From Halomonas sp. LR3S48 (GTDB lineage Bacteria > Pseudomonadota > Gammaproteobacteria > Pseudomonadales > Halomonadaceae), in contig NZ_CP107009.1 in assembly GCF_025725665.1 (NCBI RefSeq), positions 4,216,001 through 4,280,000 of the forward strand: DNA of 64,000 bases, read 5' to 3'. Positions within the stretch are counted from its first letter, which is position 1. Each line of letters starts with the position of its first letter. Shown here one piece after another: positions 51,851 through 62,748 of this stretch. The position numbers and the translations under genes are program-made. Under the pieces are notes generated by a model. That model did no database searches, had not been told where the DNA came from, and worked only from the letters and a program-made list of their open reading frames with translations.

Positions 51851-53224
51851 TCAGGCGGCGATGGTCCCCGTCGCCAGGGCGTGCTCCGTTCCGCCCCGCA
51901 GGTGGTGCTGCAGGATTTCCTGCGCACCCTCGGCATCTCGCCGCAGGGTGCAGTCGTAAAGCGCTCGGTGCTCGTCGGCGGCGATGCGGCCCCGGTAGGA
52001 GAGGGCAATGAGCTGATAGCGCAGGTACTTGTCGAAGACCGCGTTGTGCAGATGCATCAGTACCTGGGAGCCGCAGGCCGAGGTCAGCGCTTGGTGAAAC
52101 TGCCAGTCATACCGCTTCCAGAGTTCGGCGACCTGTAGATTGCCGTTCGCCATCTCCGCCTCCATGGTGGCGAGCTTGTGATAGGCCGCTACGACTCTCG
52201 CTTCCCAGTCGATGTCTCCATGCGCAAAGGAGTCCTCCAGCGCCCGCCCCTCCACCAGAAGCCGCAATTCGGCCAGCTCGCGAGCATTCTCGGCCGATAT
52301 CGGCGCGACTTCGAAGCCACGCTGACCCTCGGCGACGACGAATCCTTCCGAGGTCAGCCGGTTGAGAGCTTCGCGCAGTGTGGTCACGCTGGTGTCGTAA
52401 TCCTCCTGCAGGTTGCTCAATTTCAGCTTCTTCCCCGGGGGCAGCTTGCCGGCGATGATGTCGGCGCGTATGCAGCGCCAGGCCGTCTCGCCCACCGAGG
52501 CCAGCGTCTCTGACTTGTTCAGCCTTCCGTGAATTGAGGGCGTTGGGTCCGAAGCGGCGGAGGAGAGCTGACCGGTCTCCACCGTATGTGCCACGCAGGC
52601 TGCGATATGCTGGTGCAATATGCCGGCGGCACGCTCGGCGTCGCGTGCCAGGGCTGCATCCAACAGCATGCGGTGTTCCTGAGCCGCGGGTTTGCCACGA
52701 AAGATGACGGCAACGATCTGGTAACGCTGGTAGCGGTCGAAGATAGCGCCATAAACCTGGAGCAGCTCCGCCGAGCCGCACGCGGAAATCAGGGTATGGT
52801 GGAATTCACGGTCATAGCGCTTCCATTCGGCGCTGCGGCTGGTATCGCCCGCCATCATCAGGCGTTCCATGGACTCGAGCTTGTGGTACGCGCCGACCAC
52901 CCGCCCTTCCCACTCCAGGTCACCCTTGTGGAATGCCTCGCGCAGGGCGTGGCACTCCAGCAGTTCGCGCAGATCGGCGAGTTGCTGAAACTCCTCCTGG
53001 GTGACGGCGGCGACCTCGAAGCCGCGCTGGCCTTCGGAACGAACCAGGCCTTCGGCGGATAGCCGATAGAGGGACTCGCGCAGGGTGCTGACGCTGGCCG
53101 AGTAGCGCTCCTTCAACGCTTCCAGGCGTAGCCGGGAGCACGGCGCCAGACGACCGCCAATGATGTCGCTGCGGATGGACCGGTAAGCGCTTTCACCCGC
53201 CGTTTCCTGTGGTACAGGCAGCAA
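51851..53224 (-). CDS. Tandem-duplicated GntR/FCD transcriptional regulator (two HTH, two FCD domains)
   Basis: A 457-residue protein made of two complete FadR-type GntR units. Unit 1 (about residues 7-225): wHTH AYRSIRSDIIGGRLAPCSRLRLEALKERYSASVSTLRESLYRLSAEGLV, then an FCD domain. Unit 2 (about 245-457): AWRCIRADIIAGKLPPGKKLKLSNLQEDYDTSVTTLREALNRLTSEGFV plus FCD. Both FCD halves keep the Asp and three His metal ligands (YDREFH / EHRML / HQHI and YDWQFH / EHRAL / QHHL). Shared blocks include SEGQRGFEVA-type, RVV.AYHKL and EWKRYD-type. A TTG at 53224 has a strong GGGAGGT site; an ATG at 53305 lacks one. Family members normally have one unit and dimerise. It is divergent from the TRAP genes and probably controls them. 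Confidence 0.88.
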   Translation of the reverse strand: MLPVPQETAGESAYRSIRSDIIGGRLAPCSRLRLEALKERYSASVSTLRESLYRLSAEGLVRSEGQRGFEVAAVTQEEFQQLADLRELLECHALREAFHKGDLEWEGRVVGAYHKLESMERLMMAGDTSRSAEWKRYDREFHHTLISACGSAELLQVYGAIFDRYQRYQIVAVIFRGKPAAQEHRMLLDAALARDAERAAGILHQHIAACVAHTVETGQLSSAASDPTPSIHGRLNKSETLASVGETAWRCIRADIIAGKLPPGKKLKLSNLQEDYDTSVTTLREALNRLTSEGFVVAEGQRGFEVAPISAENARELAELRLLVEGRALEDSFAHGDIDWEARVVAAYHKLATMEAEMANGNLQVAELWKRYDWQFHQALTSACGSQVLMHLHNAVFDKYLRYQLIALSYRGRIAADEHRALYDCTLRRDAEGAQEILQHHLRGGTEHALATGTIAA

Positions 53225-53441
53225 GACCCACCTCCCTTGTTGGTACTGACCATTTTGTTCCTCGCCCGTGAAGCCAGCAAGAGAAAAACTCAATTCAAAT
53301 GACATTATCAAAAATATCGTAAGAAATCGCTAAAAGCAGTTGATCACCGAAATGCGTGATGTAGCATGGAGCTGTCCAGCGTGGGTGCAAGGCATCTCGC
53401 CGCGGGCGCATCACAACGACAAGATAAAAAGGAGGCACTCC

Positions 53442-54431
53442 ATGCCCATTCCCGCCCAATGCCGCGGCTTTCTTGCCGCCGGTGTCATGATGTTCGCAGC
53501 GACCACATCAGCCGTGACCGTCGCGCAAGACAACCCCACGCTGCGTTTCTCGGCGGTGTTCTCCGAGCAGGACATCCGGGCCGAGATGATGCAGCGCTTC
53601 GAAGAAGCCATCGCCGATGACTTCGATATGGAACTGCATTATGGCGGCACGCTCTTCAGCCAGGGCTCGGAATTGGTCGCGCTCCAGCGCGGCAACCTGG
53701 AAATGAGCAACGTCGCGCCGCAGGACGTCGCCAACCAGATCCCGGCCTGGTCCATTCTGACCTCCGCCTACCTCTTCCGTGATGCCGAGCACCTGCTGAC
53801 GTTCTTCGACAGTGAAGCCGGGGAAGAAATGAAGGCCATGGCCGAGGAGCAGTTGGGTGTTCACATCCTGGGCCCGACCTTCTTCGGCACCCGCCATGTA
53901 GGGCTGGTGGACGATGAGCGGATCGAAACTCCCGAGGATATGTCCGGCGTGCGGCTACGCATGCCGCCGGGAGAGTCGTGGCAGTTCCTGGGCGAGGCGC
54001 TCGGCGCGAATCCGACCGCCATGGCTTATGCCGAGGTCTATACAGGCCTGCAGACCGGCGCCATCGACGGTCAGGACAATCCCCTGCCGAACGTCCAGAA
54101 CATGCGTTTCTACGAAGTGATGGATCAGATCGCGCTGACGTCGCATCTCGTGGCGTTCGACCTGCTGATGGTTTCCTCCAGCGTCTGGAACGACATGACG
54201 CCGGAGCAGCAGCAAGCCTTCCAGGCCGCTGCTGACGAGGCGATTGCCTGGAGCACGGCGGAACATCAGCGCAAAGAGCAGGAACTGGCTGACTTTTTCC
54301 GCGAGCAAGGACTCGATGTCTACACGCCGGATATCGATGCCTTCCGCGAGTATGCGCAGCAGCGGTACCTGGAATCCTCGATCTCCGACGCATGGCCGGA
54401 AGGCATGCTCGAGCGCATCAACAACCTTTAA
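53442..54431 (+). CDS. TRAP transporter substrate-binding protein (DctP family)
   Basis: Periplasmic receptor of 329 residues from MPIPAQCRGFLAAGVMMFAA, with AGGAGG upstream. Signal peptide cleavage is near VTVAQD. Mature DctP features: LRFSAVFSEQDIRAEMMQRFEEAI, MELHYGGTLFSQGSELVALQRGNLEMSNV, IETPEDMSGVRLRMPPGESWQFLGEALGANPTAMAYAEVYTGLQTGAIDGQDNPL, which includes the ligand-carboxylate arginine. It heads a complete TRAP operon that continues into aroQ, so shikimate, quinate or dehydroshikimate is the likely ligand (inference from context). Confidence 0.94.
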   Translation: MPIPAQCRGFLAAGVMMFAATTSAVTVAQDNPTLRFSAVFSEQDIRAEMMQRFEEAIADDFDMELHYGGTLFSQGSELVALQRGNLEMSNVAPQDVANQIPAWSILTSAYLFRDAEHLLTFFDSEAGEEMKAMAEEQLGVHILGPTFFGTRHVGLVDDERIETPEDMSGVRLRMPPGESWQFLGEALGANPTAMAYAEVYTGLQTGAIDGQDNPLPNVQNMRFYEVMDQIALTSHLVAFDLLMVSSSVWNDMTPEQQQAFQAAADEAIAWSTAEHQRKEQELADFFREQGLDVYTPDIDAFREYAQQRYLESSISDAWPEGMLERINNL

Positions 54432-54487
54432 TGGCTGATGGATCGGCCGCGTCGCGGTCGATCCCACTCCACCCTGGAGGTACGCAG

Positions 54488-55009
54488 ATGCGCCAAAGGA
54501 TTCTCCGGTGGGCGGCATGGCTGCGCCATGGCGCCGAGGCCGTTGCGGCCGCCATGCTCGCCGTCATGTTCGCTTCGTTCCTGATCACGGTGCTGTTCCG
54601 CTACGTTCTTAACTGGCCGGCGGGCTGGGCCTCGGAACTGAGCACCGTGATGTGGGTCTGGCTGGTGCTGTTCGGTGCGGCCTTTCTGCTCCGCGAGCGT
54701 GACGAGATCCGCTTCGACATCTTCTACAGCAATGTTCCGCCTCCCATTCGCCGTATGATGACGGTGCTTTTCTCCCTTGGCGTCGTCGGCCTTTTCCTGG
54801 TTTCCCTGCCCGCGGTCTACGACTACGTGACCTTCATGAAGGTGCAGCGCACGTCGTATCTGCGTATCCGCTACGACTGGCTGTACTCGATCTACGTGGT
54901 CTTCGCCGTGGCCATCATCATCCGCTACGGCTGGATTGGCACTCGCGCCGCACTGGGGCACGACCCGATGGCCAAACGCGACGCCGACGACGAAACACAG
55001 CGAGGTTAA
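54488..55009 (+). CDS. TRAP transporter small permease (DctQ family)
   Basis: Four-helix membrane protein of 173 residues from MRQRILRWAAWLRHGAEAV, with TGGAGG ahead. Hydrophobic segments: AAAMLAVMFASFLITVLFRYVLN, STVMWVWLVLFGAAFLLRERDEIRFDIFY (with the conserved loop), MMTVLFSLGVVGLFLVSLPAVYDYV and LYSIYVVFAVAIIIRYGWIG. The WASELSTVMWVWLVLFGAA stretch is the DctQ hallmark. It joins DctM in the membrane. Two base pairs separate its stop from dctM. Confidence 0.92.
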   Translation: MRQRILRWAAWLRHGAEAVAAAMLAVMFASFLITVLFRYVLNWPAGWASELSTVMWVWLVLFGAAFLLRERDEIRFDIFYSNVPPPIRRMMTVLFSLGVVGLFLVSLPAVYDYVTFMKVQRTSYLRIRYDWLYSIYVVFAVAIIIRYGWIGTRAALGHDPMAKRDADDETQRG

Positions 55010-55011
55010 GG

Positions 55012-56304
55012 ATGGATCCCTTTACGCTCACGCTTCTGGCAATCATCGCCCTGGCGCTGTTGGGGCTGCCCATCGGGCTGTCGATGATTTCGGGCTCCAT
55101 CGTCTACCTCCTCATGAACGGAATGGACATGGGGCTGGTGGCCGAGCGATTGCTGAACAGCATGTTCACCGGCTACGTCATTCTCGCGGTGCCTCTGTTC
55201 ATCCTCGCCGCGGAATTGATGAACATCGGCACCATGACCAATCGCCTGCTGCATTTCTGTAATGCCCTGGTCGGACGCTTCCGCGGTGGCCTGGCCTACG
55301 TCAACATCGCGCAGTCGATCATCTTCTCCGGCATGTCCGGGTCGGCCTTCGCCGATGCGGCAGGCTCGGGCCGGATCATCGCCAACATGATGATCCAGGA
55401 CGGACGCTACACCCGCAGCTTCGCCGCTGCCCTGACGGCGAGCGCGGCGGTCATCGGGCCGATCATTCCCCCCTCGATTCCGATGGTGCTCTATGCCCTG
55501 GTGTCCAACGCCTCCATCGGCTACCTGTTTCTCGGCGGCATCATTCCCGGCTTGTTGATGGGCGCTATGCTGATGATCGTGGTGATGGTCACGGCGCGGC
55601 GCCGGCGGTTTCCGGTGGAGGAGCCAACACCGGTACGGGAGTTGCCGGGCATTACCGTTCGCGCGTTCCCGGCGCTGATGCTACCGGTGGTACTGCTGGG
55701 CGGGATCTACAGCGGAGCGATGACACCCACCGAGGCAGCCGCCGTCGCCGCGGCCTACGCCTTCCTGATCTCGGTCCTGCTTTACCGCAACGTCAGTGTG
55801 CGACAGGTTTACGATTCTCTCGTCGCCAGCGCCCGCTCCTCCGTCGCCATCGGCATGCTGATCGCGGGGGCACTGGTGTTCAACTACGTGGTGACGTCCG
55901 AGAACATTCCACAGGCACTGCGCATCTTCCTGGCCGATTACGACCTTTCGGCGTTGCAGTTCCTGCTGCTCGTCAATCTCGTGCTGCTTCTGCTGGGCTG
56001 TCTGCTGGAAGGCACGGCCATCATCCTGATCATCGTGCCGGTGTTCATCCCCACGGCGAATGCCCTGGGCGTCGACCTGGTGCATTTCGGCGTCATCGCG
56101 GTGGTGAACATCATGATCGGGCTGGTGACACCGCCTTACGGGCTACTGATCTTCATCATGCAGAGCATTACCCGCGCCCCATTGCGCAGCCTGTTCCGCG
56201 ATCTCGTCCCGTTCATCGCCGCGCTCTTCGTGTCGCTGGCGGTCATCACGCTCTTTCCCGATCTCGTCCTCTGGCTACCGCGACAGTTCGGCTACCAGGG
56301 CTGA
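55012..56304 (+). CDS. TRAP transporter large permease (DctM family)
   Basis: Twelve-helix sodium-coupled transport subunit of 430 residues. It starts MDPFTLTLLAIIALALLGLPIGLSMISGSIVYL. Conserved DctM blocks are FSGMSGSAFADAAGSGRIIANMMIQDGRYTRSFAAALTASAAVIGPIIPPSIPMVLYAL (about residues 102-160), YSGAMTPTEAAAVAAAYAFLISV, and NIMIGLVTPPYGLLIFIM near residue 365. These match the sodium and substrate site region in the P. profundum/H. influenzae structures. Completes the DctPQM set. Confidence 0.95.
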   Translation: MDPFTLTLLAIIALALLGLPIGLSMISGSIVYLLMNGMDMGLVAERLLNSMFTGYVILAVPLFILAAELMNIGTMTNRLLHFCNALVGRFRGGLAYVNIAQSIIFSGMSGSAFADAAGSGRIIANMMIQDGRYTRSFAAALTASAAVIGPIIPPSIPMVLYALVSNASIGYLFLGGIIPGLLMGAMLMIVVMVTARRRRFPVEEPTPVRELPGITVRAFPALMLPVVLLGGIYSGAMTPTEAAAVAAAYAFLISVLLYRNVSVRQVYDSLVASARSSVAIGMLIAGALVFNYVVTSENIPQALRIFLADYDLSALQFLLLVNLVLLLLGCLLEGTAIILIIVPVFIPTANALGVDLVHFGVIAVVNIMIGLVTPPYGLLIFIMQSITRAPLRSLFRDLVPFIAALFVSLAVITLFPDLVLWLPRQFGYQG

Positions 56305-56325: not shown

Positions 56326-56772
56326 ATGCCCAGCCCCATTCACGTTCTCAACGGCCCGAACCTCAACCGGCTCGGCAAGCGCGAACCAGAGATCTATGGC
56401 CATACCACGCTGGCGGAGGTCGAATCTCTGTGCCGGCAGGCCTCCGGCACCCGGCCGGTGGTGTTCCGCCAGTCCGGCTACGAAGGCCAGTTGGTCGAGT
56501 GGATTCATGAGGCCATCGATGAGCCCGCTGCCGCCATCGTCATCAATCCGGCGGGGCTGACCTTCACCTCGATCCCGATCCTCGACGCGCTCAAGATGTT
56601 TCCCGGGCCGATCATCGAGCTGCATATCTCCAACATCCACCGACGCGAGGAGATCTATCATCGCTCGCTCGTCTCGCGCATCGCCACGGCCGTGATCGCG
56701 GGGCTGGGGCCGTCCGGCTATCGGACGGCCGTCGAGGCCGCGCTACGCCTGGTCGAAGGCACCGATCCATAA
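56326..56772 (+). CDS. aroQ: Type II 3-dehydroquinate dehydratase family protein, with active-site substitutions
   Basis: Small dodecameric-type dehydroquinase of 148 residues, interconverting 3-dehydroquinate and 3-dehydroshikimate. The N-terminus IHVLNGPNLNRLGKREPEIYGHTT holds the catalytic Arg and Tyr loop. HISNIHRREE carries the conserved His-Ser-Asn. However, the canonical GGLTHTS loop reads PAGLTFTS (histidine to phenylalanine), and the Arg of EEFRRHS is EEIYHRS. These residues bind or orient substrate in the Mycobacterium enzyme. It is the last gene of the TRAP operon, 21 bp past dctM, with AGAGG before the ATG. A catabolic quinate role, or an altered specificity, is possible. Confidence 0.85.
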   Translation: MPSPIHVLNGPNLNRLGKREPEIYGHTTLAEVESLCRQASGTRPVVFRQSGYEGQLVEWIHEAIDEPAAAIVINPAGLTFTSIPILDALKMFPGPIIELHISNIHRREEIYHRSLVSRIATAVIAGLGPSGYRTAVEAALRLVEGTDP

Positions 56773-56936: not shown

Positions 56937-58679
56937 ATGGCCGACATACGACAGGATTACGACCTGGTGGTGGTAGGTTCCGGCGCCGCCGGCCTCGCCG
57001 CCGCCGTCACCGCCGCCTACCAGGGTCTCGAAGTAGCCGTGGTAGAAAAAGCCGATGCGCTGGGCGGCGCTACCGCCTGGTCAGGCGGCTGGATGTGGGC
57101 CCCGCTCAATCCGCTGGCCAAGGCGGCCGGCATCGATGAAGATCCAGAGACCGTGCGTACCTACCTGCGTCATGAGCTGGGTGAACGCTATGACGCGGCG
57201 AAGATCGACGCCTTCCTCGACGCCGCACCGCGGATGGTCGCCTTCTTCCATGAGAAAACCGCGCTGCAGTTCGCCGACGGCAACGCCATCGCCGACATCC
57301 ACGGCGACACGCCCGGGGCCGGCACCGGCGGCCGCTCGGTGATCGCCGCTCCCTTCGACGGACGCCAACTGAGCAGTGCGACATTGGCCAAGCTGCGCAA
57401 GACCATGCCGGAGACAGCCTTCCTCGGCATGCCGATCCAAGCCGGGCCGGACCTCGCGGCCTTCCTGACCGCTACCCGCTCGCTGAAATCCTTCGTGCAC
57501 GTGGCCCGACGCCTCACCCGCCATTGCCTCGACCTGGCCCGCTACGGCCGTGCCATGCAGCTGGTCAACGGGGTGGCCCTGATAGGGCGATTGGCCAAGT
57601 CCGCCGAGAACCTGGGCGTGGAGATGCACGTCTCATCCTCGGCGAAACGCCTGATCAAGGAGGATGAACGGGTCACCGGCGTGGTGGTCGAGGGCTCGCA
57701 GGGGCAGGTGACCCTGCGAGCCCGATGTGGCGTGGTGCTGGCCGCCGGTGGCTTCCCCTGGGACGTCGAGCGCCGCCGGGAACTCTTCCCGCGCACGCCG
57801 ACGGGCCAGGAGCACTGGCCCCTGCCGCCCCCCTCCGCCAATGGCGACGGCCTGCGTCTGGGCGAGTCGGTGGGCGGCACGGTGGCCACCGACCTCCACT
57901 CACCGGTGGCCTGGGCACCGGTGTCGCTGGTGCCCTGGGGTGATGGCCGTGTCGGTCACTTCCCGCATATCATCGACCGCGGCAAGCCGGGCCTGATCGG
58001 CGTCCTGCAAAGCGGCAGGCGCTTCGTCAACGAGGCCGGCGGCTACTACGACTACGTGGACGCCATGGTCAAGGCGGTGCCCGAGGGCGAGGAGGTCTGC
58101 TCCTGGCTGATCTGCACGCACCACTTCCAGCGTCGTTATGGCCTCGGCATCACCCGTCCGGCGCCGGTCCCCTTCAGGCACTGGATCCGCAAGGGCTACA
58201 TCAAGCGCGGCAGGACACTCGCCGAGCTGGCGCAAGCATGCGGTATCGACCCGGACGGCCTCGCGGCCACCGTGGCCGACTACAACCGCCACGCCGCCCG
58301 GGGCGAGGACCCCGAGTTCGGCCGTGGCTCCACTCCCTACAACCGCAAGCAGGGCGACCCTGCCCACGGCCCCAATCCCTGCGTAGCACCCCTGGACCAG
58401 GGTCCTTTCTATGCAGTGAAGGTAGTCCCGGGCTGCTTCGGCACCTTCGCCGGCCTCGAGACCAACGAGCATGCCCAGGTGCTGAACGCCCAGGGCACGC
58501 CGATCGAGGGCCTCTATGCAGCGGGCAGCGATATGGCCAGCCTCATGGGCGGCTTCTACCCGGCCGGCGGCATCAACCTCGGCCCTGCCATGACCTTTGG
58601 CCATATCGCCGGCCTGCATGCCGCGGGACGGATACGGCACGACGCCGCGAACGCCGGAGCCGACACCGCCCATGCGTGA
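56937..58679 (+). CDS. FAD-dependent oxidoreductase (FAD_binding_2 / ketosteroid-dehydrogenase-like)
   Basis: Flavoprotein of 580 residues. The FAD Rossmann motif DYDLVVVGSGAAGLAAAVTAAYQGLEVAVVEKADALGGATAWSGG is at the N-terminus; a second FAD contact GLYAAGSDMASLMGGFYPAGGINLGPAMTFGHIAG is at the C-terminus. Between them is a substrate domain like those of 3-ketosteroid-delta1-dehydrogenases and fumarate reductases, with SGRRFVNEAGGYYDYVDAMVK. No signal peptide or heme motif was seen. Its stop overlaps the TIM-barrel gene by 8 bp. Flanked by quinate/shikimate genes, it could dehydrogenate a hydroaromatic acid such as shikimate or quinate; this is inference. Confidence 0.87.
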   Translation: MADIRQDYDLVVVGSGAAGLAAAVTAAYQGLEVAVVEKADALGGATAWSGGWMWAPLNPLAKAAGIDEDPETVRTYLRHELGERYDAAKIDAFLDAAPRMVAFFHEKTALQFADGNAIADIHGDTPGAGTGGRSVIAAPFDGRQLSSATLAKLRKTMPETAFLGMPIQAGPDLAAFLTATRSLKSFVHVARRLTRHCLDLARYGRAMQLVNGVALIGRLAKSAENLGVEMHVSSSAKRLIKEDERVTGVVVEGSQGQVTLRARCGVVLAAGGFPWDVERRRELFPRTPTGQEHWPLPPPSANGDGLRLGESVGGTVATDLHSPVAWAPVSLVPWGDGRVGHFPHIIDRGKPGLIGVLQSGRRFVNEAGGYYDYVDAMVKAVPEGEEVCSWLICTHHFQRRYGLGITRPAPVPFRHWIRKGYIKRGRTLAELAQACGIDPDGLAATVADYNRHAARGEDPEFGRGSTPYNRKQGDPAHGPNPCVAPLDQGPFYAVKVVPGCFGTFAGLETNEHAQVLNAQGTPIEGLYAAGSDMASLMGGFYPAGGINLGPAMTFGHIAGLHAAGRIRHDAANAGADTAHA

Positions 58680-59496
58680 GCCGATCTTCTCCCTCGCCGC
58701 CCTCACCGTACTCGAGCTGTCGCCACCCGAGATGGTCGAGGTCGCCGCCCAGGCCGGCTATGAGGCCGTGGGCCTGCGGCTGATTCCCGCCACGCCGGAG
58801 GAGCACCACTTCCCGCTGGCCCAGGATGCCGGTCTGTTACGGCGTACCCGGCAGCGCCTGCATGAAACCGGGCTACGAGTGCTTGATATCGAGATCCTGC
58901 GCCTGAAGCCCGACACCGCCGTGGGCCGGGATTTCCGCCAGGTGCTGGAGATCGGCGCCGAGCTGGGCGCCAGCGAGGTGCTGGTGGCGGGGAACGACGA
59001 CGATGAGGCACGTACCGTCGACAACTTTTCCGCCCTGTGCGAGCTGGCCGCCCCGCTGGGCCTGCATCCGCATCTGGAGTTCATGCCCTGGACGGGAGTG
59101 AAGAACCTGGCCCAGGCGCACCGCATCGTCGCCGCCGCGCGCCAGGCCGGGCAGGGCAACGCCTGCCTGCTGGTCGACGCCTTCCATTTCAACCGCTCGG
59201 CCAGCCGCCTGGGGGATCTTGTGCATGTGCCGCCGGACTGGCTGCGCTACGTGCAGCTGTGCGACGTGGCCGGCCCGATTCCGGACAGCATGGAAGCGAT
59301 CCTGCACGAGGCGAGGCAGCAACGCCGCTTCCCCGGTGATGGCGATATCGACCTGGCAGCCCTGCTGGCAGCCCTACCCTCGGGCCGGCCGTTAAGCCTC
59401 GAGATTCCCACTGAATCGCTGCGTCGCCGAGGCGTCACCGCACTGGAGCGGGCACGGCGGGCGCTCGAGGCGGCACGTGCCGTCGTTGTCGGTTGA
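58672..59496 (+). CDS. Sugar phosphate isomerase/epimerase-like TIM-barrel protein
   Basis: AP-endonuclease-2-family TIM barrel of 274 residues from MREPIFSLAALTVLELSPPEMVEVAAQAGYEAVGLR. Metal-site elements of the fold are visible: HLEFMPWTGVKN (glutamate, about residue 140), LLVDAFHFNRS (aspartate and histidine, about residue 167), LRYVQLCDVAGPI, and SLEIPTE near the end (glutamate). 3-Dehydroshikimate dehydratases of the AsbF/QuiC type have this fold, so it may be a second, single-domain dehydratase. An inosose-dehydratase or isomerase role is equally compatible. It is translationally coupled to the FAD oxidoreductase and converges on the dehydrogenase gene. Confidence 0.83.
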   Translation: MREPIFSLAALTVLELSPPEMVEVAAQAGYEAVGLRLIPATPEEHHFPLAQDAGLLRRTRQRLHETGLRVLDIEILRLKPDTAVGRDFRQVLEIGAELGASEVLVAGNDDDEARTVDNFSALCELAAPLGLHPHLEFMPWTGVKNLAQAHRIVAAARQAGQGNACLLVDAFHFNRSASRLGDLVHVPPDWLRYVQLCDVAGPIPDSMEAILHEARQQRRFPGDGDIDLAALLAALPSGRPLSLEIPTESLRRRGVTALERARRALEAARAVVVG

Positions 59497-59530: not shown

Positions 59531-60391
59531 TCATGGCTCCCTGAGCAGCTCACGGCGGTAATGGGCATAGAGGGTGGCGGCCTGCTCGTCGGCAGCGGCG
59601 CGCTTGGCCTCGTCCTCGCAGAAGCGCTTGAAGGCGTCGACACCCTGGAAGACGAATAGCCCGACACCACTCATCACCTCTGCCCCCGCAGCCTTGGCGG
59701 CAGCGACGAACTCGGTGATTGCCGGCACATAAACGGCATCGAAGATCCAGTGGTGCGCCGCGATCAGCTCCGCGGGTAGCGGGCAGCCCGGGCTCTTTTC
59801 GTGGCCGATGGGGGTGCAGTTGACCAGGCCGTCGCAGGCCGGCACCGTCTCGGCCAGTTGTTCCGGGGTAATGGTGGAGGCGGCAAATCCCTGGGCCTTC
59901 AGCTCCTCGGCCAGCTGACGCGACTTCGTCGGGTCCAGGTCCATCAGCACTATCTCTGAAGCGCCGAGCCGGCCCAGGCCGAAGGCGACCGCCTTGCCCA
60001 CGCCTCCGGTACCAAGCAGCAATACCCGCCCCGGCTCACGCTCGCCGAGAGTGGCACGAAAGCCGCTGATGAAACCGGTGAAATCGGTATTCTCGGCGAA
60101 GATGCCATCCTCTTCGAAGACCAGCGTATTGGCGGCTCCGACCATCCGCGCCCCCTCGGAAGCGCGATCGGCAAGGCGCACGGCATCCTCTTTCCAGGGA
60201 TAGGTGACATTGACGCCCCGGTATCCGACGGCCATCACCTTCCTTACCTGACTCTCGAGCGATTCGATCGGCTGCTCGTTGGCGTCGAACAGGTCATAGG
60301 TGGCGGGTATGCCGGTCAACTTACCGAGCCGCACATGCAGATCCGGCGAGCTGGAGTTCATTATTGCCTTGCCGATCAAGCCCAATTTCAT
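59531..60391 (-). CDS. Shikimate/quinate dehydrogenase (AroE family, probably NAD-dependent)
   Basis: AroE-fold dehydrogenase of 286 residues from MKLGLIGKAIMNSSSPDLHV, with AGGAGA before the ATG. Substrate-site elements: SSSP, the catalytic lysine in GVNVTYPWKEDAV (about residue 75), GAANT and ENTDFTGF. The cofactor loop is LLLGTGGVGKAVAFGLGRLGASEIVLMDLD. The acidic MDLD in place of the NRT of biosynthetic NADP enzymes suggests NAD use and a catabolic role, oxidising shikimate or quinate. It lies 80 bp downstream of quiC on the same strand; the gap has GCGAAC/GTTCGC half sites. Confidence 0.9.
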   Translation of the reverse strand: MKLGLIGKAIMNSSSPDLHVRLGKLTGIPATYDLFDANEQPIESLESQVRKVMAVGYRGVNVTYPWKEDAVRLADRASEGARMVGAANTLVFEEDGIFAENTDFTGFISGFRATLGEREPGRVLLLGTGGVGKAVAFGLGRLGASEIVLMDLDPTKSRQLAEELKAQGFAASTITPEQLAETVPACDGLVNCTPIGHEKSPGCPLPAELIAAHHWIFDAVYVPAITEFVAAAKAAGAEVMSGVGLFVFQGVDAFKRFCEDEAKRAAADEQAATLYAHYRRELLREP

Positions 60392-60411
60392 AACGCCGTC
60401 TCCTGAACGGG

Positions 60412-60425
60412 GCGAACGAGTTCGC
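60412..60425. promoter_or_regulatory. GCGAAC/GTTCGC inverted half sites between quiC and the dehydrogenase gene
   Basis: GCGAACGAGTTCGC is a perfect 14-bp palindrome built from the same hexamers as the PcaR-type sites but in the opposite arm order. It lies 21-34 bp before the dehydrogenase start, and could serve as a separate regulated promoter. Confidence 0.4.
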
Positions 60426-60471
60426 ATAGATCGCGAAAATCAATCCCGGAACAACCACTCACTGCTAGTTC

Positions 60472-62316
60472 TCAGCCGGCCTTGGCCTGGGCCGCGAGGC
60501 GGATGCCGGCGTTGGCCTCGCCGAACTTCTGGTAGTCGCCGCGCCGTTCGACGATCTCGAAGAAGAAGCGCCCCGAGAAGGTCTCGGTATAGGCATGCAG
60601 GAAGTCGCCGTCCTCGTTGCGATCGAACAGGATGTTGCGCGAACGCAGGGCGTCGAGCAGTTCCGGGGCGATGTCGAAGCGTGTCTCCAGGTCGTCGTAG
60701 TAGTTGCGCGGAATCTTCAACAGCGGCAGCCCGCGGGCCAGGATTTCGTCCACGGTGGCGATGATGTCGCGGCTCTCGAAGGCGATCTGCTGCACGCCGC
60801 CGCGAAACTCGCTGAGGAAGCGCCCCGGCTGGGTCTCGCGAGCCTGGGAGACGGTGAGCGGCAGGCGAATGCTGCGGTCGGGGCTGACCACCGCCTGGCT
60901 GATCATCATGCCGTGAGGGTCGACGATCTCGTTCTCTGCCTCGGCGGCAAAGCCGAATACGGTGCGGTAGAACAGCTGCCAGCCCAGCAGTTGCGTCGCC
61001 GGCAAAACGTATGAGAGATGGTCGATACGAACCAGGCCCGCTTCGTCGCGGCTCTCCTGGTCGAAAAGCTCGAAGTCGGTGCGCCACTGCAGGTCGTCGG
61101 CGGCCGCCTCGTCCACCAGGTAGATCAGGCTGCCCTCGACGCCACGCAGCGCCGGGATTTCCATCTCCCCCTCCCCCACCTGGCTGCGGAACAGCGGCGC
61201 CTTGAAGGCCCGGGCACGCTCCAGCGCCCGCTCCACGTCGTCGACCCGAAAGCCCACGGCGCACACCGAGGTGCCATGCAGTAGCCGAAAGGTGTGGGCG
61301 AAGCTGTCGGTCTCGAAATTGAGTACCAAGTGGATCTCGCCCTGCTTCCATAGCTCCACGTTCTTGGAGCGATGGCGCCCCACATGGCGAAAACCCAGCG
61401 CATCGATGAACTCGCCCAGGGGGCCGGCGCTCTCCTCGTCGAGGGTGAACTCGATGAAATGCACACCATGGTAGTGTGGCGCGGCTGGCAGCTCGCTCGC
61501 CCAAGGCCCGGCATCGACCAGGTTCTCGAGCCAGATCAGCGAGCGCAGGCCATCCAGGGCAGTCACCTCGGTCGGGGCGGCGCGGAAGGCATCACTGAAG
61601 ATCTCGAGCGAAAGGGGCCCGTCATAGCCCGACTTGCCCAGCTCGGCCATGAAAGCCTGGAGCGGCAGGCGTCCCTGGCCGGGAAAGCAGCGGAAATGTC
61701 GGCTCCACTGCAGGATGTCCATGTCCAGCAGCGGCGCATCGGCCAGTTGGACGAAGAAGATCTTCTCCTTGGGGATCTTGCCGATGGCGGAGAGGTCGTG
61801 CCGGCGAGAGAGGATATGGAAACTGTCGAGTACCACACCAAGATTGGGATGGTCGGCACGGCGAACCACCTCCCAGGCATCACGATAGTCAGAGATATGG
61901 CGCCCCCAGGCCAGTGCCTCGAAACCGATACGAATGCTTCGCCGGGCGGCCCGTTCCGCCAGCTCGCGCAGATCGGCCACGGTGCGATCCATATCGTCGA
62001 TGCTCTGGGGCGAGACGTTGCTGCACACCAGCAGGAAATCGGTGCTGAGCTGCTCCATCAGGTCGAACTTGCGCTCGGCACGCTGAAAGTTGCGGCTACG
62101 CTGTGGCTCGGGCATGGCCTCGAAGTCGCGAAACGGCTGGAAGGCGACGATGGCCAGACCCAGACGCTCGCAGAGCCGACGCACCTCCTCGGGTGAACCG
62201 TCGAACGAGAGCAGGTCGTTCTCGAAGATCTCCACACCCTCGAAGCCCGCACGAGCGATCGCTTCCAGCTTGGTCCTGAGATCGCCGCTCAAGCAGACCG
62301 TGGCAATGGCACGCAT
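60472..62316 (-). CDS. quiC: 3-dehydroshikimate dehydratase (two-domain, TIM barrel plus VOC/HPPD-like)
   Basis: Converts 3-dehydroshikimate to protocatechuate. 614 residues from MRAIATVCLSGDLRTKLEAIARAGFEGVEIFENDLL; GGGAGG lies eight bases ahead, with a second ATG two codons upstream less well spaced. Residues 1-275 are the TIM-barrel dehydratase domain, with metal-site elements GFEALAWG, GVVLDSFHILSR (Asp, His), FVQLADAP and SLEIFSD. From about residue 290 comes a hydroxyphenylpyruvate-dioxygenase-like VOC pair: HFIEFTLDEESAGPLGEFIDALGFRHVGRHRSKNV, IDHLSYVLP, and FFFEIVERRGDY at the end. This matches QuiC1-type fusions of Pseudomonas. Product protocatechuate feeds PcaHG. Confidence 0.92.
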   Translation of the reverse strand: MRAIATVCLSGDLRTKLEAIARAGFEGVEIFENDLLSFDGSPEEVRRLCERLGLAIVAFQPFRDFEAMPEPQRSRNFQRAERKFDLMEQLSTDFLLVCSNVSPQSIDDMDRTVADLRELAERAARRSIRIGFEALAWGRHISDYRDAWEVVRRADHPNLGVVLDSFHILSRRHDLSAIGKIPKEKIFFVQLADAPLLDMDILQWSRHFRCFPGQGRLPLQAFMAELGKSGYDGPLSLEIFSDAFRAAPTEVTALDGLRSLIWLENLVDAGPWASELPAAPHYHGVHFIEFTLDEESAGPLGEFIDALGFRHVGRHRSKNVELWKQGEIHLVLNFETDSFAHTFRLLHGTSVCAVGFRVDDVERALERARAFKAPLFRSQVGEGEMEIPALRGVEGSLIYLVDEAAADDLQWRTDFELFDQESRDEAGLVRIDHLSYVLPATQLLGWQLFYRTVFGFAAEAENEIVDPHGMMISQAVVSPDRSIRLPLTVSQARETQPGRFLSEFRGGVQQIAFESRDIIATVDEILARGLPLLKIPRNYYDDLETRFDIAPELLDALRSRNILFDRNEDGDFLHAYTETFSGRFFFEIVERRGDYQKFGEANAGIRLAAQAKAG

Positions 62317-62748
62317 CCTCATCCCCTCCCGGCCCCTATCACCTGACAGCGATGAGCAGCCTTCTTGTTCGTTCAAGATTCCATCGTCCCGCCTCGCGCA
62401 GAACTGGAACACGGTTTCGATGTTCGCATGACGGCCTTAAGTTCGCAATATCTACGGCTCTCGTCGAGTTCCCATCGGGATGAGCCTTTCTTGGGCTTCG
62501 AGGAATATCATAGAGGTGCACTTTGCCCTTGGCTCCCTTCTTTGCTTTTTGGCGCACCTGCGTTGGCAGCGCCATGTATTAAACCTTCGTCGCAGAAAAC
62601 CCTCTGGGCATTGACAGTATTGGAAGGGAGTTCTAGTGTTCGCAAAAAGCACTATCGTTCGCAAAGCGAACACAAGTTCACTCCTGCCAAGACAGGAAGC
62701 GTCATCGGTCGACATAACAACCAATCACAACACCCCCCGGAGGATTCC
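62317..62748. promoter_or_regulatory. Divergent control region quiC / tctC with several PcaR-type half sites
   Basis: A 432-bp gap without a credible gene. Near quiC two direct GTTCGC half sites start at 62422 and 62441, 19 bp apart. Near tctC there is a full palindrome (62657-62671) and an upstream half site GTTCGC at 62638-62643. PobR/PcaU-type regulators use a palindrome plus an extra direct half site, matching this layout. Confidence 0.6.
62657..62671. promoter_or_regulatory. PcaR-type operator before the second TTT transporter
   Basis: GTTCGCAAAGCGAAC, a perfect 5-5-5 palindrome differing from the pcaB/pcaR site (40932) at one base in the spacer. It lies 78 bp upstream of tctC at 62749. 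It ties transport and quiC to the IclR regulator of the pca genes. Confidence 0.75.

Follow-up and report, generated by a model that had tools for sequence, protein, structure and literature searches.

The window, that is, the whole stretch of 64,000 nucleotides of Halomonas sp. LR3S48 that was analysed, encodes on its minus strand a tandem GntR-FCD regulator of 457 amino acids (51851..53224), as supported by the open frame, the Pfam matches of each half and its orthologues. This protein is a recurrent single-chain form of a FadR-type paralogue pair tied to shikimate/quinate genes, and it is probably a covalently joined pair of paralogues (a pseudo-heterodimer) that represses the uptake and catabolism of these acids.

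Two complete units in one chain

The frame starts with a TTG codon at 53224, preceded by GGGAGGTG, and ends at 51851. Half alignment, column comparison and the structural model delimited, on the same strand, an N-unit of residues 8–222 (52559..53203; wHTH 8–76, FCD 77–212) and a C-unit of residues 243–457 (51854..52498), the latter being the more conserved half. The linker between them (residues 223–242, 52499..52558, minus strand), defined by the alignment of fused homologues and the model, is A/P-rich and ranges from 11 to 27 residues in 118 fused homologues, these being the 120 listed matches of the database search described below minus the fragment P0019 and P0025. Both halves carry the GntR wHTH (PF00392) and the FCD domain (PF07729) of the FadR subfamily, with 52.4 and 68.1 bits in the N half and 56.7 and 63.0 bits in the C half (gathering cut-offs 27 and 24.3), and the fold of the unit is that of solved members.

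The FCD of each half shows the D/H/H/H residues that, from FCD structures, we take to be metal ligands (D138, H142, H184, and H206 in N; D373, H377, H419, and H441 in C). Six of these positions were invariant in all 118 fused homologues, and the other two were kept in 117 (one R at H377 and one gap at H441). The preliminary description, which had proposed two complete wHTH-FCD units with intact metal-type residues, was thus confirmed by the per-half Pfam matches and by this conservation. The alignment of the halves that it had put forward as a check turned out to be gapless, with residues 8–222 and 243–457 sharing 50% identity over 215 residues (E 9e-78 in a two-sequence comparison). At the DNA level, blastn of the N half against the C half gave no match, which indicates that the duplication is old.

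The best NCBIfam model, for the whole chain and for each half, was CsiR (NF008576). We rejected this identity, as the halves score 124.4 and 116.3 bits against a cut-off of 218 and the neighbourhood is of the shikimate type. The whole chain, with 229.5 bits, exceeds the 218 required only through the addition of two halves that each fall short of it. An automatic assignment to CsiR would be an artefact, and the case shows how a curated cut-off can be exceeded by a duplicated domain whose two weak halves are added up.

Predicted structure

The AlphaFold2 model of the window protein, built on the 118 fused rows, had a mean pLDDT of 92.1 and a pTM of 0.90, with residues 232–238 as the only run of three or more below a pLDDT of 50. 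For P0053, a protein of another fused lineage modelled with 55 rows of its own clade, the values were 88.9 and 0.84, and residues 1–6 and the linker (224–243) fell below 50. One chain was modelled in each run. Such pTM values imply that the two units of one chain have a defined mutual placement. The idea of a regulator that is "its own dimer" therefore stands as far as a covalent double unit packed as one object is concerned, and a dimer-like state is plausible from the prediction.

In contrast to the two units found here, PmiR (7xp0/7xp1), TM0439 (3fms, 3sxy), Atu1419 VanR (6za3), and similar solved GntR-FCD chains contain one unit per chain. No chain spanning both units was detected among the best 50 of 838 and the best 50 of 813 structure matches (Foldseek, VIA).

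Distribution of the fused chain

The Halomonas genome consists of one finished contig of 4.69 Mb, and full-length orthologues were found in three other genomes of the genus (87, 81, and 78% identity). The search for other GntR-FCD chains of about 450 residues, also suggested in the preliminary description, scored 8000 candidates; among the best 120 of 620 matches at E 1e-3, 119 (the window's own among them) were 426–519 aa long. Further fused carriers among the matches listed belong to Saccharospirillum, Paracoccus, Tepidamorphus, Azospirillum, and Roseomonas. Two frames of 460 and 557 residues, in G402 and G410, were not counted as fusions, as their contigs match in length those of the loci L045 and L033, in which the frame scan gave two frames separated by a stop.

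In the family of the window genome, 5 of 275 genomes gave a match at E 1e-40, four of them full-length (the window's own included) and the other a single unit at 40% identity; the gene is thus rare in this family, and we infer that it reached Halomonas horizontally. For the family of another known carrier, genome G275, 29 of 151 genomes matched at E 1e-60.

Fused, split, and single loci

Related loci were collected by a contig scan with a 22-row alignment, which yielded at least 591 stretches, and the best 80 were kept and sorted with a unit profile over all frames. Adjacent genes on the same strand made up 60 of these loci, 11 were fused and 9 had a single C-type unit; these are the best-scoring 80, so the ratios between states are not a census. 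The 60 pairs comprised 38 of an N-type and a C-type gene and 22 of a Rhizobium type, in which a C-type gene is followed by a strongly diverged C-type copy (e.g., L032, 10001–11404). In 20 pairs from Microvirga the units are only 32–35 nt apart, the stop of the N gene falling directly at the end of the unit. Separate N-type proteins of about 224 aa also headed the single-unit matches in a search with the N half.

In the 8 single-locus genomes (of 9) that were searched, no N-type unit was found, the next match having at most 40% identity or being absent. One single locus (L073) lies at a contig end, where its partner may have been cut off, and Stappia shows both states, with the N-type missing and present. 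By eye, the leaders of the single genes at L061 and L070 resemble the N–C junctions of L049 and L064, both of them pair loci, which would suit a deletion of N. As a separate observation, the stretch before the single C-type gene of L050, L054, and L058 and the N–C junction of L019 share similar words (around CGGACATT and ATCGGAAGA), perhaps a second site or a promoter belonging to the C-type gene.

Age of the duplication and changes between states

A tree of units was obtained from 201 sequences thinned to 87 rows (81 family units and 6 outgroup rows, these on long branches, with a root support of 92/46). One starred clade (99/89) held all C-type units, one unit of the single type and both members of the Rhizobium-type pairs, of which five were in the tree. 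N-type units fell outside it: 24 of them formed one group (97/79) and 10 another (89/70), with a single row left loose. The window C-unit grouped with the downstream gene of N+C pairs and with units of single loci. Since fused N units group with split N units and fused C units with split C units, the duplication that gave rise to N and C is older than the fusion.

The "full internal duplication" of the preliminary description holds in that the chain has two units that are 50% identical; it leaves out the central point, namely that the counterparts are two adjacent genes in 60 of the best 80 loci, the N/C duplication predates the fusion, and joining or splitting happened several times. A tree of 51 N+C rows (30 fused, 21 split), from which 22 Rhizobium-type, 9 single, and 15 Microvirga loci, L051, L053, and 3 duplicate proteins were left out, required 4 changes of state, 3 of them forced by starred branches, and a single origin of the fused form was rejected (one fused clade, p-AU 3.7e-38). 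These about four changes suggested by the sequences may be gains or losses, which are indistinguishable on the tree. Single C-type genes appeared scattered among pairs, with 7 changes of state for 44 rows, of which 3 were forced; they cannot be regarded as clustered, because 77 of 500 shuffles reached as low a number of changes.

Comparison of the N and C halves

We compared 68 N and 68 C units from 49 loci and 19 fused proteins. The N and C consensus sequences were 92% identical over the 13 positions of the recognition helix, 83% over the wHTH, and 71% over the FCD. Both halves thus probably read similar DNA, and it is the FCD domains that have diverged more. The earlier proposal of an asymmetric operator, in the sense of halves that read quite different DNA, is made less likely by recognition helices that are 92% identical. 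Residues Q378, H393, and G444 were present in at least 99% of C units vs. 41–53% of N units, and N was the more divergent half in 2046 of the 2278 comparisons made, although these depend on one another.

A shikimate/quinate neighbourhood

On the plus strand, divergent from the regulator, lie genes for the TRAP solute-binding subunit DctP (53442..54431; PF03480, start set by inspection), a DctQ-like small membrane subunit (54392..55009, assigned by position, with an uncertain start), a DctM-like large membrane subunit (55012..56304, also by position), and a type II 3-dehydroquinate dehydratase, AroQ (56326..56772; NF003806 above cut-off). Further on, on the minus strand, are a shikimate dehydrogenase of the AroE type (59531..60427; NF009201 above cut-off) and a frame of 646 aa for a QuiC-like 3-dehydroshikimate dehydratase (60472..62412), which matches NF042435 with 742 bits over residues 34–645, short of the cut-off of 1200. 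Residues 316–634 of the QuiC-like protein also match 4-hydroxyphenylpyruvate dioxygenase, with 201 bits where the cut-off is 277, and a gene for a TctC-type solute receptor (PF03401; 62365–63756) adjoins. Shikimate/quinate-type acids are converted towards protocatechuate by such pathway enzymes, and the neighbouring genes thus point to the uptake and conversion of acids of this type.

In the best 80 loci, several of them shortened by contig ends, tblastn (E 1e-15) detected AroQ near the regulator in 78, the QuiC-like protein in 61, DctP, DctQ, and DctM in 54 each, and AroE in 50. The dctP gene was divergent and less than 600 nt from the regulator in 52 of the 54 DctP loci, the exceptions being L019, with a more distant dctP, and L077, with one that is not divergent. 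None of the 22 Rhizobium-type loci had TRAP genes of the window type; in an annotated Rhizobium example on pRLN2, the pair is followed by genes for a QuiC-like protein, an ABC transporter, 3-dehydroquinate dehydratase, and shikimate dehydrogenase. Downstream of aroQ (56937–59496), the window also encodes a small TIM-barrel protein and an FAD-binding dehydrogenase that scores above the cut-off of NF004789. Each was found by tblastn in only 2 of the 80 loci, and the two are possibly an added branch of the pathway; an SDR of the window was found in 1 of the 80.

A conserved element in the divergent promoter

A conserved element, a candidate operator, was located between the regulator and dctP at 53289..53350 (minus strand) as the best ungapped match of a 62-column model seeded from L091 and refined on 52 regions plus the window; its consensus core is AAATCAATAGGCATTTTnnAAATCATCTGATATTTTTnATTTnATCAT. 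Best matches in the 53 real regions scored from 19.0 to 67.7 (43.8 in the window) and 1060 letter shuffles at most 12.6, a gap that is inflated, as these regions also served to train the model. The exact words ATCAATA and TGATATT occurred together in 23 of the 53 regions, in 21 of these exactly 25 nt apart. The letters T, C, A, and A at columns 7–10 were kept in 51–52 of the 53 and those of TGATATT (columns 31–37) in 40–50. The window copy contains neither of the exact words, and its central dyad is degraded. Part of the element may be promoter rather than operator.

Symmetry on axis 31.0, of eight pairs, was 2.17 in fused (n = 12), 4.80 in split (n = 35), and 3.83 in single loci (n = 6), and on the best axis, 29.5, the values hardly differed (3.75, 4.23, and 4.33, respectively); the lower symmetry of fused loci is only a lead, because the axes were picked post hoc and the loci are related. 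The same element stands ahead of six single C-type genes; a lone C-unit is therefore probably sufficient, and the N+C pair is not strictly required. The case against an obligate pair is strongest in these single C-type loci.

Discussion

The halves of this regulator are often neighbouring genes beside shikimate/quinate genes, and the chain therefore looks like two partner proteins that have been joined. An older duplication produced the N-type and C-type regulators, which in many Alphaproteobacteria have remained separate neighbouring genes. They form one chain in several lineages, among them the one that this Halomonas-type genome has in common with Rhodobacterales. Within such a chain, the N and C units would pack through their FCD domains like an ordinary FadR-type dimer, so that two near-identical recognition helices would sit on the element at 53289–53350. 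There, the chain would repress the divergent dctP operon, and perhaps its own gene as well, until one of the acids of the pathway (shikimate, quinate, 3-dehydroshikimate, or protocatechuate) bound the FCD pockets and the DNA was released. Joining would fix a 1:1 ratio and favour N–C over N–N or C–C pairing. We infer in this scheme the N–C pairing in solution, the repression, the ligand, and the positions of the element that are contacted. The fact that the partner is a second C-type copy and not an N-type in 22 of the 60 pairs, as classified from sequence, counts against a reading in terms of N and C.

More tentatively, the protein could be a recurrent natural covalent heterodimer with divided labour, in which the conserved C half senses the pathway acid, the faster-changing N half provides for a second input or adjusts the response, and the operators of fused lineages are free, owing to the fixed 1:1 ratio, to depart from dyad symmetry.

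It is unlikely that the chain acts instead as a scaffold for two dimers, with N–N and C–C contacts between two chains and a four-unit assembly spanning a long element with boxes 25 bp apart. The length of the element and the 25 nt spacing of both words in 21 of 23 regions would suit such an assembly, a flexible linker would permit the exchange, and C presumably pairs with itself, as it occurs alone; however, the placement within a single chain was confident in two lineages (pTM 0.90 and 0.84), in models of one chain each.

Rather improbable is that the C-unit carries out ordinary regulation of the homodimer type, with an N-unit that is dispensable, being lost or only tuning affinity. The absence of the N-type from several lineages, Stappia with both states, the junction-like leaders of L061 and L070, and the greater divergence of N (2046 of 2278 comparisons) speak for it, but the wHTH and the four metal-type residues are all retained in the N-unit, and the units are joined in one chain in separate lineages. 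Finally, a sequencing or assembly error that merged two genes, with a missed stop near 52550, has a negligible probability: relatives with split pairs do exist, with the units in frame and a stop between them, but the finished single contig, the fused orthologues in many independent records, and the lengths of the homologues refute it.

Regulators of quinate/shikimate catabolism are known, those of the QsuR type, which serve the same pathway as proposed here and belong to a protein family other than GntR; the titles and abstract openings searched yielded no recognisable GntR regulator of this pathway. In keeping with the earlier remark that no well-described example was known, they likewise yielded no recognisable description of a tandem GntR-FCD protein. 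The nearest parallel to our joined paralogue pair is that of ExuR and UxuR of Escherichia coli, paralogous sugar-acid regulators of the GntR family that form heterodimers, according to the parts of the two reports consulted (PMC9369180, PMC12842492). As far as those parts go, the likeness lies in two paralogous GntR units, here joined or adjacent, by the genes of one pathway. The difference is that ExuR and UxuR are separate proteins for hexuronates, whereas here there is one chain beside genes for shikimate-type acids, its physical heterodimer being a predicted packing; the same parts of both reports do not mention a fused form.

The same regulator thus exists in three natural states, as a single C-type gene, an adjacent pair, and a joined chain, in similar gene surroundings, and the element is recognisable beside this three-state family in 52 loci and the window. 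With three states beside like genes, the path from a homodimeric repressor to a paralogue pair and to a single-chain heterodimer becomes testable, which opens the question of how joining affects the ligand response and the symmetry of the operator. For Alphaproteobacteria and Halomonas, the protein is a candidate regulator of shikimate/quinate catabolism.
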